The notes beneath the pieces were generated by a model. The model made no database searches. It was not told the DNA's origin and saw only the letters and a program-made list of their open reading frames with translations. Source: a virus. From it: a stretch of DNA of 61,005 nucleotides. The position numbers were made by a program, and so were the translations under genes. Below are positions 26,872 through 37,108 of this stretch, piece after piece; position 1 is the stretch's first letter; each line of letters opens with the position of its first letter. The stretch is taken from the IMG/VR virus record IMGVR_UViG_3300013286_000627, positions 1 through 61,005 of that record, one strand, 5' to 3'.

Positions 26872-27495
26872 ATGATTTCACAACTAGTACCAATGGTGGT
26901 CGAAAAGACCGGTCAAGGCGAACGAGCGTTCGATATTTTTTCCAGACTCTTGAACGAGAGAATAGTGTTCCTTAACGGACCAGTTGATGATCACAGTGCA
27001 AATCTTGTGGTAGCACAATTGCTACATTTAGAGAGTGCCGATTCAGAGAAAGATATTCATCTTTACATCAACAGCCCAGGTGGCGGTGTGACTGCTGGCT
27101 TGAGTATCTATGATGTTATGCAATTTATCAAACCTGATGTTGCAACCTATGTCATGGGGCAGGCTTGTTCAATGGGTAGTTTCCTTGCACAGGCAGGTGC
27201 AAAAGGCAAGCGATATGTATTGCCAGAAAGCCGCACAATGATTCATCGTGTTAGTTCGGGCACACCGGGTACTCGGGGTTCAGTTCATGTACAAGAACTA
27301 CAGTTCGAAGATGCAAAACGCAGCTATGATGAAAGTCAGCGTATCAATCAGCGTTTGACAGAACTGTATGTCCGTCACAATACTGCTGGCAAGACATATG
27401 AGGAATTGTTTGAGATCATGAAGTTTGACACATTCCTTTCTGCACAGGAAGCAGTTGCATATGGTCTGGCCGACAAGGTTGTTGAGAGTCGATAA
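26872..27495 (+). CDS. clpP: ATP-dependent Clp protease proteolytic subunit
   Basis: A 207-residue serine peptidase of full ClpP length. The triad is Ser100 in [11 protein letters not shown], His125 in RTMIHR and Asp176 in [23 protein letters not shown] is the oxyanion-proximal glycine loop. ClpP forms 14-mers that degrade proteins unfolded by ClpA or ClpX; this window also encodes a ClpA with a docking loop at 54316. The start at 26872 gives a normal-length N-terminus. Confidence 0.95.
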
Positions 27496-30563: not shown

Positions 30564-30657
30564 TGATAAAATATTCTACGGTACTATTCTCGCTTTGTTT
30601 GCCTTTACTATAGGGCATCCATATATTGCTTTATTCATTTTTATTTTAAGTATATGA
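30556..30657 (+). CDS. Membrane microprotein
   Basis: A 33-residue, almost wholly hydrophobic protein (FYGTILALFAFTIG, PYIALFIFILSI). It overlaps both neighbours (8 nt and ATGA), which supports translation. Function unknown. Confidence 0.5.
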   Translation: MGSDKIFYGTILALFAFTIGHPYIALFIFILSI

Positions 30658-31682
30658 CTAAGAAAATCGGATTCGCCTGCAAGTGGATTGATACTCCTGC
30701 ACAAGTTAATGGTATCAAGCCCAATGACGATGCCAAGCAATATAATACCGGCAGTACCACTGTTGCATGGTTAAATAGACAGAGCAAAGAAGTTGCGGAA
30801 CAAAAACTATGGGACCTAATGGTAGGTAATATCGAAGCTGTTCGCAAGCTCGTCAACCGTGTGGGAGCACTTGATGAAAATCTTAGAATGGTACGACTCG
30901 GCAGCGATATACTACCTGTGTATACTCAGCAGGATTGGAGCTGGTTTTGGCGGCTTCCCGCTACCAGAGAATATTGCGAAAGAGCATTTAGAGAAGTGGG
31001 AGATGTGGCTCGCAAGAATGGTGTTAGGCTCTCTTTTCATCCTGGTCAGTTCACTGTGTTGGCAAGTGATAATCCAGATATCGTTAATCGTAGTATAGAG
31101 GAGTTTGAATATCATGCAGATATGGCCAGGTACATGGGCTACGGTAAATCGTTCCAAGACTTTAAGATCAACGTCCATATCTCCGGTCGCGCCGGTCCAG
31201 AAGGTATCCGACAAGCCTACAAAAGACTCAGCCCCGAAGCCCGCAACACCATTACAATCGAAAACGAAGAAAATGCGTGGGGACTAGATGATTGCATTAG
31301 CATATCTGATCTTGTTCCAATTGTTTTGGATCTACATCATAATTGGGTGCGAGAAGGAGAATACTTGGCGCCATCCTCGGAGCAGGTTCAGCGGGTTGTT
31401 GATTCTTGGCGCGGTGTTCGCCCTACTTTACATTACAGTGTTTCACGTGAAGATTGGCTTGTTGGTCACGACCCGTTAGTTGCCCCAGATTATAAACTGT
31501 TGTTAGAAAACGGATACCGTAAGCAAAAACTTCGGGCCCATAGTGATTTCTACTGGAATACAGCAGTAAATGAATGGGCTTTGAGCTTTTTAGATCAGTT
31601 CGACATCATGGCGGAGAGTAAGGGCAAGAACCTTGCGAGCTTTGCCCTTGCTGATCAAGCTAAAAAGTTAAGCCTTCTTTGA
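30654..31682 (+). CDS. uvsE: UV-damage endonuclease (UVDE family)
   Basis: A 342-residue TIM-barrel endonuclease. LSFHPGQFTVLAS, NVHISG, ITIENEE and IVLDLHHN carry the metal-binding His/Glu/Asp residues of UVDE. The family nicks 5' to cyclobutane dimers and 6-4 photoproducts, starting an alternative excision repair. This suits a phage of sunlit water. Its end overlaps the convergent basic-protein gene by 15 nt. Confidence 0.92.
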   Translation: MTKKIGFACKWIDTPAQVNGIKPNDDAKQYNTGSTTVAWLNRQSKEVAEQKLWDLMVGNIEAVRKLVNRVGALDENLRMVRLGSDILPVYTQQDWSWFWRLPATREYCERAFREVGDVARKNGVRLSFHPGQFTVLASDNPDIVNRSIEEFEYHADMARYMGYGKSFQDFKINVHISGRAGPEGIRQAYKRLSPEARNTITIENEENAWGLDDCISISDLVPIVLDLHHNWVREGEYLAPSSEQVQRVVDSWRGVRPTLHYSVSREDWLVGHDPLVAPDYKLLLENGYRKQKLRAHSDFYWNTAVNEWALSFLDQFDIMAESKGKNLASFALADQAKKLSLL

Positions 31683-32012: not shown

Positions 32013-32152
32013 GACAATTTCCTTTAAGAATTATGTACGTTTATTTAACCACTGATAAATATCATTGTGAATAAACTGATATGGAGGGCAACCAGATCCG
32101 AATACGATGATAGATTCGTTCTATCAACCCCATGTTTTATATTGGAATAAAA

Positions 32153-32377
32153 ATGCCTAACAATGTCGCAGCAATGTCTGTGGAAATAGAAGAAATTGAA
32201 GATAACGATGATTTCGGTCGTGATGATTTTGGATTTATCATCGGACCAGATGGGAACTTAAAAACCTTTATGATTCCCGAACACCTAATGTCAGACCCGC
32301 CCGAAGAGGTGCTAGCCATATTAGAAATGTTTGGTATTGACGATATACACGAGATAGAGCACAAACTGCTACATTAA
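32153..32377 (+). CDS. Hypothetical acidic protein
   Basis: A 74-residue, very acidic protein (EIEEIEDNDDFGRDDFG). ATG 32153 has a weak GGA 8 nt upstream; ATG 32132 in the same frame is an alternative. It precedes the structural block. A late-like GATAAATA at 32054-32061 could drive it. Confidence 0.55.
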   Translation: MPNNVAAMSVEIEEIEDNDDFGRDDFGFIIGPDGNLKTFMIPEHLMSDPPEEVLAILEMFGIDDIHEIEHKLLH

Positions 32378-32452: not shown

Positions 32453-35400
32453 ATGCCTACCAATAACTATACTTTTAAAAAAATAGCAGGAAGCGCACAT
32501 CCGCAACCTGATAACATAGTATCATCTGTTCCGCTAGATCTTAACGAAACTATTACCATTACAATAGTAGTTCGTAGACCCACTACAGAGATTACCTTAA
32601 AAGATTATGCTCAAGGTGTGATGGATGGAGTTTATACAACTTTATCTCATGACGAGTTCAAGGCTAAATTTGGTACCGATGCCGAAGATTTTGCCGCCGT
32701 TAGAGAATTTATAGAATCATTTGGCATTACAGTAGTTGATCAATATCGTAGTAGTAGTCAAATAAAATTAACAGGAACCGCTGATCAATTCAATCAAGCA
32801 TTTCAAATAACTTTGTTGTCTGTCGAAACTGACCAACAAACCCATATCAGTCACATAGATGATATTAGTATACCCGATAGCCTTGAAAATATTATTGATC
32901 ATGTTATTGGATTTGATACATCTTGGAGATTAAAACCGTTATATCATGTTGTTCCGGAAAATGGAGTTTTTCCGGCTGCTGTAAGTGGGTTAACACCGTC
33001 TCAAGTCGCTACTGCTTATAAAATGCCAAACAACACAGGTTCAGGACAATGCATTGGTATTCTAGAATTTGGTGGCGGATGGACACAGGATAACCTGAAT
33101 AGCACGTTTGCTAATTACGGACAAACTCCGCCTACCGTGGTAGATGTGTTTGTTAATGGTGGTTATAATTATCCAGGCGACCCTAGTGGCGCTAGTGTAG
33201 AAGTTATGCTAGATATTGCAGTAGCAGGTGGTGTTGCGCCCGGAGCAAAACAAGTTATATACTTTGCTCCAAATACATTTGGAGACTTTGCAACTTGCTT
33301 CAGTGCTGCAATTAATGATAATACTAACAATCCGTCTATATTATCATTAAGTTGGGGAGCAGGTGAATCTGCGTGGAGTGGTTATTTCACTGCAATGGAT
33401 AGTGTACTCCAAACATCAGTCGCAAAAGGCATAACAATATTTGCTGCGGCAGGCGACTGGGGTTCTGCTGCGCCGGGTGGTAACAGTTTTGATCCGTTGT
33501 TCCCTGCTACTAATCCTTACATAATTGCCTGCGGCGGAACAACTTTAGAATTAAACCCGGATGGTTCCATTGCTAGCGAAGTAGTTTGGAATAACACAAA
33601 TCAAGGATATGCCACTGGAGGGGGATTAAGTGTTCAGTACGGGGCACCTTCATATCAAACTGGAAAAGGATTAAGGTATAGCCAACATTCATCATCAGGA
33701 GATATTGGACCAGCTGCGTTTTCTACTAGAGGTATACCAGATTGGGGCGGAAATGCAGACGGAGCTAGCGGATACCAATTTTATTATGGATCCGGTAATC
33801 AACTTATTGTCGGAGTCGGCGGTACAAGTGCAACTGCACCGCTCTTTGCCGGGTGTGTTGCTAGATTAAACAATGCAATAAGCCCATCCAAAGTTGGATT
33901 TGTACACACATTAAGTTACAATAACCCAGGTGCTTTTAGAGATGTTACTTCTGGTAACAATTCAGGTCCTAACAATTTTTGGTATAATGCTACTATAGGA
34001 TGGGATGCTGTTACTGGATTAGGAAGCCCTATAGGTATTTCATTAATATCAGTTTTGAACGGAATATCTGTCGATGCTACTTTATCTAATTTAAGTATAT
34101 CTGGTGGGGGATTAAATCCAACATTTACTTCAAGTATAACATCATATACAGATACAGTAGATTATGGTACAACATCGGTCACAATTACAGCAACTTGTAA
34201 CGAATCACATGCAACAATAACTGTTAACGGAACCACTGTAACATCCGGATCTGCTTCCGGTGCTATCAGTTTAAATGTTGGGGCAAATATTATTAATGTG
34301 GTAGTTACTGCTCAAGATGGCATAACCATAAAGACCTATACTATTACTGTAACTAGAAGGACAGGTAGTGTTGCTACTTTGGCTGCATTATCAATTTCAA
34401 GTGGAACATTAATTCCAACATTTAATGCCAATACAATATCGTACACTGATACTGTATTAAATGCTGTTACATCAGTTACAGTTACACCAGTGCGTAGTGA
34501 TCCACATGCTACTATAACTGTCAACGGAACTCCAGTATCATCGGGATCCCCATCTGGTACTATTAGTTTAAGTGTTGGTTCAAATACTATCACCATAATT
34601 GTTACTGGTCAAGATGGCGTAACTACAAAAACATATACCATTACTGTAACTAGATTAAGTAATGATGCTACGTTATCTGCATTAACAATTTCAAACGGAA
34701 CATTGAGCCCTTCATTTAGTTCGGGCACGACAGCATACACAAATTCAGTAGGAAATCTTGTAAGTTCAGTCACTATTACACCTACTAGTAACGAGTCACA
34801 TGCTACAATAACAGTAAACGGCGCTCCTGTAATATCTGGATATGCTTCCAGTGCTGTTAGTTTAAGTGTTGGATCAAATACTATTACTGTGATTGTTACT
34901 GCACAAGACGGTACCACAAAAACATACACTATTACTGTAACTAGAGCAATAAGTAGTGATGCCACATTATCTGCATTAACAATTTCAGATGGCACATTAA
35001 GTCCAACATTTAATTCTAATACAATATTGTACACAGATTCTGTGGGTAATTTAACCACTGCTGTTACAGTTAGACCTACTACTAACGAATCACACGCCAC
35101 AGTTACAGTTAACGGAACACCGGTAATCTCTAGATCTTCGTCCAACGCTGTTAATTTAACGGTTGGTTCAAATACCATTACCATAGTTGTTACAGGTCAA
35201 GATGGTATAGCTACAAAAACATACACTATTACTGTAACTAGAGCATCTAGCAGTGATGCTACATTATCCTCATTGATATTATCAAAGGGGGAATTGAATC
35301 CGTTGTTTATTCCGGGTAGAACTTCTTATACATCTTCTGTACTAAATGAAATACGTTCAGTTACTGTTACTCCCACAGTACATGAGTCAAACGCCAGTAT

Positions 35401-37108
35401 AGTAATTAATGGTAATTCTGTAATTTCCGGAGCCAGTTCCAAGGCTATTAATTTAAATGTAGGAGAAAATTCAATTACTTTAGTAGTTACTGCCCAAGAT
35501 GGTACAATAAATTCTTATAGTATTGTTGTAACCAGAGAAATAAGTAACGATGCTACATTGTCTTTATTAAATATATCTTCCAATTCGTTATCTCCAAAGT
35601 TTAATCCTTCAGTAGTTTTTTATAATGCCTATTCTGTATTTCACAGTTCAATTACAGTTACTCCTGTCCATAATGAATCACATGCTACAATAACTGTCAA
35701 AGGTGATACGGTATTGTCAGGAGCCACTTCTGATCCAATTAATTTAAATTTTGGTTCAAATATAATTACAATAGAAGTTACTGCTGCAAACGGAACAACC
35801 AAAAAATCATATACTTTACTAGTAACTAGAACTACTTCTACCGGAATGGTAGATTTAGGAACAGTTCGTGCTAGTAATAATCAAGTTATAAATGCAACGG
35901 CTAATAATTTATCACCCACCAAAGAAGGTAAATTTACCTATACATTTGCAGACGGGCAATTACCAGAAGGATTGTCCCTAGATCCTATTGCAGGTTATAT
36001 TTACGGATTTATTCCATATCAACCTGCATACGTATTAAACTACAAGATTGCAATTCTAACAACTAAAACTATTACAACATCTAGCCAGGTGCTTGTTGAA
36101 ACAAAAACGTTTAATTTAAATGTTAGAGGTGAAGTTGAAAGCAGTATAGAATGGATCACTGGTAGTAATCTAGGAACTATAGAAACTGGAATAATAAGTG
36201 AATTAGCAGTGGTTGCTAAACATATATTATCTAACTATACAATAAAATATACTTTAAAAAGTGGTAGTTTGCCACTAGGATTAACTTTAGAACGTGATGG
36301 AAATATATCTGGAAAAGTTAATCATAACAGTACAGGTGTATATACATTCATAGTATCAGCCAGTGATGTATATCAACTCAGTGTTATAGATCGCACATTT
36401 ACTATTACTGCTGTGCAAAGAGATTCTAAAAAATATACAGAAATGTATTTTAAACCATTGTTTTCTAAACAACAAAGAGCAAGTTATAAAGAATTTATAT
36501 CTAATGAATTTACATTTGATCCTAAACTTATGTACAGATATTTTGACTCAAACTTTGGTGTACAACATGATATAAAATTAGTATTAGAATTTGGAATTGA
36601 GCAATTAAATATCGATGATTATTTGCCTGCATTACAAAATAATTTTGATAGAAAACGATTCTATTTCGGAGATATTAAAAAGGCCATTGCTATAGATAGC
36701 ACGGGATCTGTAATCTATGAAGTTGTATACATAGATCCAATAGATGACCTAGTTAATAACAACGGAATTAGTGTTAGCAATGCAGTATATTTTGGCAATA
36801 ATATTCTTGTTTATCCTAATAGCATCGATAACATGCGTTATAATTTAGAAGATAACTTATTCATTAGTGTAAATGAATACAATAAACCTAGGTATATGCG
36901 TACACCACAATTGGGAGATTATAAACCCCCTGCTTATATGCGAGTAATTCCGTTGTGTTATGCATTGCCCGGACAAGGTGACAAGATTATTAGTCGTATT
37001 AAATTAAGTGGATTTGATTTTAAATTGTTAAATTTTGAAGTTGATAGATTAATTGTGCAAGAGAGCATAGGTAATACTACAGCTAAATATCTAATGTTGA
37101 GAGGATAA
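32453..37108 (+). CDS. Giant virion protein: sedolisin (S53) protease plus cadherin-like repeats
   Basis: A 1551-residue protein. Residues 1-180 resemble the pro-domain of kumamolisin-type proteases; 185-535 form an S53 domain with the catalytic Glu250 and Asp254 (EVMLD), Asp335 (AGDWGS) and Ser459 (GGTSATAPLFAG), and a C-terminal DVTSG/GWDAVTGLG calcium-site region. Residues 540-1125 hold six cadherin-like beta-sandwich repeats; then a putative Ig-like section (FADGQLPEGLSLDP, GSLPLGLTL) and a unique C-terminus (MYFKPLFSKQQRASYKEFI) like T4-like phage structural proteins. The fusion suggests a tail or fibre protein that digests cell-surface protein. No signal peptide. Confidence 0.85.
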   Translation: MPTNNYTFKKIAGSAHPQPDNIVSSVPLDLNETITITIVVRRPTTEITLKDYAQGVMDGVYTTLSHDEFKAKFGTDAEDFAAVREFIESFGITVVDQYRSSSQIKLTGTADQFNQAFQITLLSVETDQQTHISHIDDISIPDSLENIIDHVIGFDTSWRLKPLYHVVPENGVFPAAVSGLTPSQVATAYKMPNNTGSGQCIGILEFGGGWTQDNLNSTFANYGQTPPTVVDVFVNGGYNYPGDPSGASVEVMLDIAVAGGVAPGAKQVIYFAPNTFGDFATCFSAAINDNTNNPSILSLSWGAGESAWSGYFTAMDSVLQTSVAKGITIFAAAGDWGSAAPGGNSFDPLFPATNPYIIACGGTTLELNPDGSIASEVVWNNTNQGYATGGGLSVQYGAPSYQTGKGLRYSQHSSSGDIGPAAFSTRGIPDWGGNADGASGYQFYYGSGNQLIVGVGGTSATAPLFAGCVARLNNAISPSKVGFVHTLSYNNPGAFRDVTSGNNSGPNNFWYNATIGWDAVTGLGSPIGISLISVLNGISVDATLSNLSISGGGLNPTFTSSITSYTDTVDYGTTSVTITATCNESHATITVNGTTVTSGSASGAISLNVGANIINVVVTAQDGITIKTYTITVTRRTGSVATLAALSISSGTLIPTFNANTISYTDTVLNAVTSVTVTPVRSDPHATITVNGTPVSSGSPSGTISLSVGSNTITIIVTGQDGVTTKTYTITVTRLSNDATLSALTISNGTLSPSFSSGTTAYTNSVGNLVSSVTITPTSNESHATITVNGAPVISGYASSAVSLSVGSNTITVIVTAQDGTTKTYTITVTRAISSDATLSALTISDGTLSPTFNSNTILYTDSVGNLTTAVTVRPTTNESHATVTVNGTPVISRSSSNAVNLTVGSNTITIVVTGQDGIATKTYTITVTRASSSDATLSSLILSKGELNPLFIPGRTSYTSSVLNEIRSVTVTPTVHESNASIVINGNSVISGASSKAINLNVGENSITLVVTAQDGTINSYSIVVTREISNDATLSLLNISSNSLSPKFNPSVVFYNAYSVFHSSITVTPVHNESHATITVKGDTVLSGATSDPINLNFGSNIITIEVTAANGTTKKSYTLLVTRTTSTGMVDLGTVRASNNQVINATANNLSPTKEGKFTYTFADGQLPEGLSLDPIAGYIYGFIPYQPAYVLNYKIAILTTKTITTSSQVLVETKTFNLNVRGEVESSIEWITGSNLGTIETGIISELAVVAKHILSNYTIKYTLKSGSLPLGLTLERDGNISGKVNHNSTGVYTFIVSASDVYQLSVIDRTFTITAVQRDSKKYTEMYFKPLFSKQQRASYKEFISNEFTFDPKLMYRYFDSNFGVQHDIKLVLEFGIEQLNIDDYLPALQNNFDRKRFYFGDIKKAIAIDSTGSVIYEVVYIDPIDDLVNNNGISVSNAVYFGNNILVYPNSIDNMRYNLEDNLFISVNEYNKPRYMRTPQLGDYKPPAYMRVIPLCYALPGQGDKIISRIKLSGFDFKLLNFEVDRLIVQESIGNTTAKYLMLRG
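34070..35830 (+). repeat. Six tandem cadherin-like beta-sandwich repeats (coding)
   Basis: Units of about 94-96 residues each start near DATLSALTIS and end with KTYTITVTR. Repeats 2-4 are most alike at DNA level, suggesting recent duplication; 5 and 6 are more diverged. Confidence 0.85.

Follow-up and report, generated by a model that had tools for sequence, protein, structure and literature searches.

What does an S53 protease (sedolisin) do at the head of a phage structural protein? The question is raised by a gene in a 61,005-nucleotide stretch of viral DNA, positions 1 to 61,005 of IMG/VR record IMGVR_UViG_3300013286_000627 (hereafter the window), whose source is a T4-like virus of bacteria. 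A first-pass annotation, made from the sequence alone, had read this gene as a sedolisin with a pro-domain and a complete catalytic and calcium-binding set, followed by six cadherin-like repeats and a phage structural C-terminus. We find that the gene product is a predicted pro-kumamolisin-type S53 zymogen with an intact active site, fused to a structural anchor, and we propose, with a probability of about 0.58, that it is a tail-anchored zymogen that would trim host-surface proteins at adsorption. The gene is a single uninterrupted open reading frame (ORF) with an ATG start, encoding 1551 aa, and its parts are as follows:

32453..37108, + strand: the whole gene, S53 zymogen, six cadherin-like repeats, He_PIG domains and phage structural C-terminal module (Pfam, phmmer and homologues)
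32531..32917, + strand: Pro-kumamolisin activation domain, residues 27-155 (Pfam PF09286, E 7e-17)
32978..34060, + strand: S53 catalytic domain, about residues 176-536 (47% identity to kumamolisin)
33200..33202, + strand: catalytic Glu250 (kumamolisin alignment; invariant in all natural S53 compared)
33212..33214, + strand: catalytic Asp254 (kumamolisin alignment and S53 comparison)
33455..33457, + strand: oxyanion Asp335 (kumamolisin alignment and S53 comparison)
33827..33829, + strand: nucleophile Ser459, in GTSATAP (kumamolisin alignment and S53 comparison)
33941..34006, + strand: calcium-site segment, Asp497 to Asp518 (kumamolisin alignment and S53 comparison)
34073..35830, + strand: six cadherin-like PF12733 repeats, period about 98 aa, residues 541-1126 (Pfam)
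35873..36424, + strand: He_PIG-like Ig domains, residues about 1141-1324 (PF05345, two stretches; conserved in the family)
36425..37105, + strand: C-terminal structural module, residues about 1325-1551 (RaK2, K64-1 and XbC2 virion structural proteins, Atu_ph07 gp329 and 163 IMG/VR sequences)

Each element of the first-pass description was recovered when the protein was compared with known families. The activation domain scored 62.4 bits against a Pfam cut-off of 23.5, and the six PF12733 repeats (E 4e-113) begin at residue 541/544, downstream of the protease; the better of the two He_PIG stretches spans residues 1263-1319. A phmmer comparison with the kumamolisin zymogen 1t1e, a mutant with Ala at the nucleophile Ser position, matched residues 10-535 (E 1.4e-99), with 47% identity in the catalytic domain and 27% in the pro-domain. 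In the alignment Glu250, Asp254, Asp335 and Ser459 occupy the positions of the kumamolisin catalytic Glu, Asp, oxyanion Asp and Ser, so that the first-pass numbering of the nucleophile was correct; the Glu205-Trp301 extension is kept, and Asp497, Gly516 and Asp518 align with the calcium site. The catalytic Glu/Asp/Asp/Ser set was invariant across all natural S53 compared, divergent phage S53 included. The window protein thus resembles kumamolisin and kumamolisin-As (MEROPS S53; PDB 1t1e, 1sio) in its pro-domain and catalytic domain, its Glu/Asp/Asp/Ser set, its Glu-Trp extension and its calcium-site aspartates. Kumamolisins, however, are free bacterial exoenzymes, whereas the window zymogen heads a phage structural protein of 1551 residues in which no signal segment is evident; a strongly hydrophobic segment was looked for at its N-terminus and none stood out.

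The anchor is the part that places this enzyme among virion proteins. The last ~335 residues (about 1217-1551) are homologous to 163 IMG/VR sequences and show ~24-27% identity to proteins annotated 'virion structural protein' in RaK2, K64-1, XbC2 and Kaldavass and to gp329 of Atu_ph07; in PHROGs the module matches phrog_13911, 'virion structural protein', with E 2.4e-8 over a short stretch. Across a family alignment of 31 sequences the He_PIG region is conserved within the module family. Most members are typically ~820 aa long and have no large N-terminal enzyme, and He_PIG domains were the only ones found in those of this size scanned with Pfam; RaK2 ORF160 (phrog_13911) likewise has a window-type C-terminal module, at about 24% identity, with no enzyme domain found. 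Elsewhere the same anchor carries a subtilisin (S8), YHYH domains or an alpha/beta-hydrolase, and the enzymes that replace S53 also retain their active-site motifs. The nearest named parallels are Agrobacterium phage Atu_ph07 gp329 and Sinorhizobium phage Phosso XYS97278, which join an N-terminal serine protease to a window-type module (identity about 27%) beside tail genes. Their protease is an S8 subtilisin rather than S53, and gp329 shows He_PIG but, unlike the window protein, no cadherin-like match. Published virion mass spectrometry of Atu_ph07 (PMC6102473) places most detected proteins in three gene clusters, one of them coding sequences (CDS) 284-329. Since gp329 is the edge gene of this cluster, its presence in virions is suggested, not proven. 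Homology of its anchor supports the window protein well as a putative virion component.

To place the fusion in its genomic setting, the neighboring genes were compared between contigs. Three of them serve here as landmarks:

30654..31682, + strand: UvdE-like endonuclease, a synteny marker upstream of the locus
32132..32377, + strand: small conserved ORF just upstream, a synteny marker in L009-L021 and L100
37164..40187, + strand: collagen-repeat tail fibre with S74 chaperone, the next gene downstream; L009, L015, L016 and L100 have homologues next to the locus

In many contigs the locus is preceded by a QueD-like gene, a GDP-mannose dehydratase, a 2-oxoglutarate (2OG) oxygenase, UvdE and the small ORF, and followed by the collagen fibre, clamp loader, PhoH and endolysin. 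The position of the gene in the tail region is conserved among related phages, and the occupant of its slot differs between syntenic contigs. In L016, which by gene identity is the closest relative, it is filled by a He_PIG protein of 1018 aa; L004, L005 and L022-L024 have a form of 2270-2277 aa, with YHYH and cadherin repeats where scanned; and L021 has an alpha/beta-hydrolase with He_PIG, eight cadherin repeats and the module. The full architecture recurs in L100 (IMG/VR 3300022602_002877), from a different metagenome: a 1327-aa protein with S53, six PF12733 repeats and the module, and no He_PIG match, which shares 47% identity over 1115 aa with the window protein and lies between the same neighbours. 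Because this independent contig has S53, cadherin repeats and module at the same locus, the predicted S53-anchor fusion is confirmed.

The first-pass annotation had advised searching for the fusion in other phages, a search that L100 answers positively, and had named an assembly join inside the gene among the findings that would overturn its reading. A chimeric assembly or annotation artefact might be suspected in a metagenomic contig, the more so as base composition declines along the gene. The gene is nevertheless one unbroken ORF at a syntenic place, L021 shares its cadherin-module part (52% over 594 aa), and its S53 falls in the phage clade described below; such an artefact is extremely improbable, and an assembly chimera is rejected on L100 and L021. 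With the same fusion at the same locus in L100, a join inside the gene is very unlikely, as far as sequence allows.

Two of these loci showed further arrangements. In L004:8975-15787 and L005:4032-10865 YHYH domains flank nine cadherin-like repeats on the module (scanned for L005). L095:7983-10562 and L021:4427-11128 belong to one contig (3300013093_002126), on which an S53 gene stops inside its first cadherin repeat and a hydrolase-cadherin-module gene follows some 20 nt on; at the contig's end there is a pin gene as well as the beginning of another S53. The L095/L021 arrangement may be a module insertion.

The variable slot also bears on whether the S53 could be a virion maturation protease, which during assembly would process tail or fibre proteins of the phage itself, or nothing but its own chain. 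The window gene does stand among tail genes, and autoprocessing is normal for kumamolisin. S53 was not found, however, in the contigs of the close relatives L016 (63.5 kb) and L009 (102 kb), either of which may be a fragment; as these share the tail genes, the protease is seemingly not needed for assembly. The anchor carries S8, YHYH or alpha/beta-hydrolase in place of S53, and the window already has a head maturation protease-like gene at 26872-27495 (ClpP-like; phrog_94, E 3e-44). A maturation role is decidedly unlikely on these grounds. S53 as a fixed part of these tails is rejected, as the L016 and L009 contigs, both perhaps incomplete, show none.

We then asked how widely phages carry such enzymes. 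The window S53 found no match at E<=0.1 by tblastn in 50,697 public phage records, nor did the S53 of L105 match phage records by tblastn; a full-text literature search pairing sedolisin, kumamolisin or peptidase S53 with phage returned no relevant paper, and a peptide pattern drawn from the window S53 alone had no match in the viral contig collection. An alignment-based scan detected S53 in 15 viral contigs, and a scan with the pattern of a C-terminal tag (see below) in 37, four of them already among the former. In a tree that included 11 cellular and 6 other sequences, the phage S53, that of the window among them, formed one group with support 100/99; the cellular sequences were a limited sampling of Hymenobacter, plasmid-borne S53 and kumamolisin. 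Fused and stand-alone S53 are interspersed within this clade, which implies that the fusion was gained or lost more than once; the L100 S53 groups with other stand-alone relatives than the window S53 does. The majority of phage sedolisins stand alone, bear the tag and lie behind a fibre or tail-pin gene.

Ratios of nonsynonymous to synonymous substitution (dN/dS) of 0.03-0.15 in phage S53 pairs indicate purifying selection. This matters for the suggestion that the S53 has no catalytic role and is instead a binding domain or a spacer carried by the tail. Tail proteins do take up folded domains for binding, and the activity of the window S53 is a prediction. An idle domain is very unlikely all the same: every catalytic and calcium residue is kept, selection on the relatives is strong, and active-site motifs persist in the replacement enzymes too.

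Two sets of S53 differ from the window type. L101-L105 form a second viral-contig group outside the phage clade of the window S53; they apparently lack a pro-domain, and their short C-terminal region is a different one. L108, L111, L122, L125, L129, L131, L134 and L138 encode tagged phage S53 of ~408 aa without a pro-domain, in which the Glu205 position is Ser.

The stand-alone phage S53 end in a ~30-residue tag of the GxTFPKxNYGFRPxTGxxYPR type. A DNA pattern for this tag led to S53 proteins at 37/37 loci, or to S53 stubs where the locus starts late. Among the retrieved ORFs a looser C-terminal regular expression placed the tag on S8 proteases and on a single alpha/beta-hydrolase as well, and it is present on the 'peptidase' of cyanophage S-CREM1 within the baseplate cluster; in a second scan of the collection the carriers were S8 proteins or apparent S8 ends, besides very short chance ORFs. 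A hidden Markov model (HMM) built from S8 tags alone and run against 1126 ORFs matched S53 only (E 3e-9 to 6e-6; L099, 7e-4). Loci L091-L094, L096 and L099 are S53 loci retrieved independently of the tag. Enzymes fused to the structural module lack it. The carriers and examples of the associated gene pair are:

C-termini of S53 in L091-L094, L096, L099 and L107-L143, and of S8 in L018, L033, L048, L077 and L106: tag
L106:7402-9081; L160:4007-5659; L159:3998-5710; L077:4482-7457; L091:7986-9641; L236-L315: pin followed, usually 1 nt on, by S8 or S53

The gene directly upstream of the tagged enzymes encodes a fibre or a 'baseplate wedge subunit and tail pin' whose C-terminal domain, ~130 aa long, is conserved; like the tag, this domain was detected with a dedicated HMM. 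In a set of loci retrieved mostly via the enzyme, 51/51 distinct pins were followed by one (25 S53, 25 S8 and 1 hydrolase), at a median gap of 1 nt. Retrieval by the pin domain only, blind to the enzyme, gave 61/61 distinct pins followed by a protease (60 S8, 1 S53), within the best 80 of at least 568 matches to a cyanophage pin, distant pins falling outside this sample. In the enzyme-blind set 19/51 complete S8 enzymes fail the strict tag expression, having a changed tag or another C-terminal domain. The pin domain found no convincing match in Pfam or PDB. The window has no match to the pin-domain HMM and no FPKxNYxxRPxTGxxYPR-type tag, its enzyme being fused instead.

The cyanophages S-H38, Sf-FR1, S-WAM2 and S-CREM1 fit this pattern: like the window phage they are T4-like phages with a tail-region serine protease, here annotated 'subtilisin-like serine protease', and for three of the four the immediately preceding gene is 'baseplate wedge subunit and tail pin'. 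Their proteases differ from the window protein in being stand-alone S8 enzymes with the C-terminal tag or a variant and a pin upstream, where both tag and pin are missing from the window. We infer that the pin domain and the tag would bind each other. We give even odds to a wider scheme, in which many T4-like and larger phages would share an enzyme mount, the ~130-residue C-terminal pin domain receiving the ~30-residue tag on exchangeable enzymes (S53, S8 and at least one alpha/beta-hydrolase), with the window protein as an alternative solution, fusion to a different tail module.

Some variants of the cassette were also seen. L010:11865-14045 encodes an alpha/beta-hydrolase (BD-FAE-like) with He_PIG and a variant tag behind a pin gene, and in L161:3518-5524 and L164:3995-6919 an apparent plastocyanin-like stretch replaces the tag of a cyanophage S8 behind a pin. 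A ~203-aa gene family directly follows the tagged enzyme in L091:9697-10305, L117:2279-2887 and L173:2834-3448; one of the loci concerned is an S8 locus, the others are S53 loci.

A tail-borne protease is proposed for the window protein from its domain order and intact active site, the purifying selection on relatives, the homology of the anchor and the recurrence of the fusion. Inside the cell the protein would be synthesised in inactive, zymogen form, and its C-terminal module would be built into the virion as a tail or baseplate component, with the six cadherin-like repeats as a stalk displaying the kumamolisin-type S53 at the N-terminus. Release as part of the particle would probably be by lysis, as the N-terminus shows no strongly hydrophobic stretch. 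Once the cell has lysed, the pro-domain would be removed from the N-terminus, probably autocatalytically; autoprocessing, which the first-pass annotation had raised, is plausible. Fusion and tag are both C-terminal, so the pro-domain could be removed without losing the enzyme, and the mature protease would stay on the tail, its anchor being at the opposite end. There it would cut host-surface or extracellular-matrix proteins and so clear a path to the receptor.

Probable release by lysis would equally suit an enzyme that acts late, with virions or free protease digesting lysate debris, matrix or competitor proteins and so promoting the spread of progeny rather than adsorption; an enzyme on the virion surface would aid dispersal too. 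Set against this, C-terminal anchoring and the coupling to pin or fibre genes in relatives point to a particle acting at the cell surface, and we consider late action unlikely. The adsorption role has difficulties of its own. The main one is that characterised sedolisins have their optimum at acid pH, which makes activity in neutral water doubtful unless the niche is acidic. A profile search of the C-terminal module against PDB gave no sequence match, so that the module cannot be assigned to a particular position in the virion, and the virion location, activation step, activity and substrate of the window S53 are all inferred. The first-pass suggestions of an S-layer, biofilm or capsule-anchoring target and of acid activity are guesses.

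Phage tails are known for sugar- and cell-wall-cutting enzymes; tail proteases, to our knowledge, are barely characterised. Annotated cyanophage subtilisin-like genes were already known, as were enzyme-bearing tails as a kind. The S53 on a tail anchor adds a new form to these, and the pin-protease pair may be more than that. The window locus, L100 and dozens of stand-alone relatives mean that phages do carry sedolisins, which raises the question of which host protein barrier makes a tail protease worthwhile. A common C-terminal tag on unrelated protease folds offers a handle on how tails recruit enzymes and a possible means of mounting proteins on phage particles, and the use of tail proteases looks like a recurrent phage strategy.

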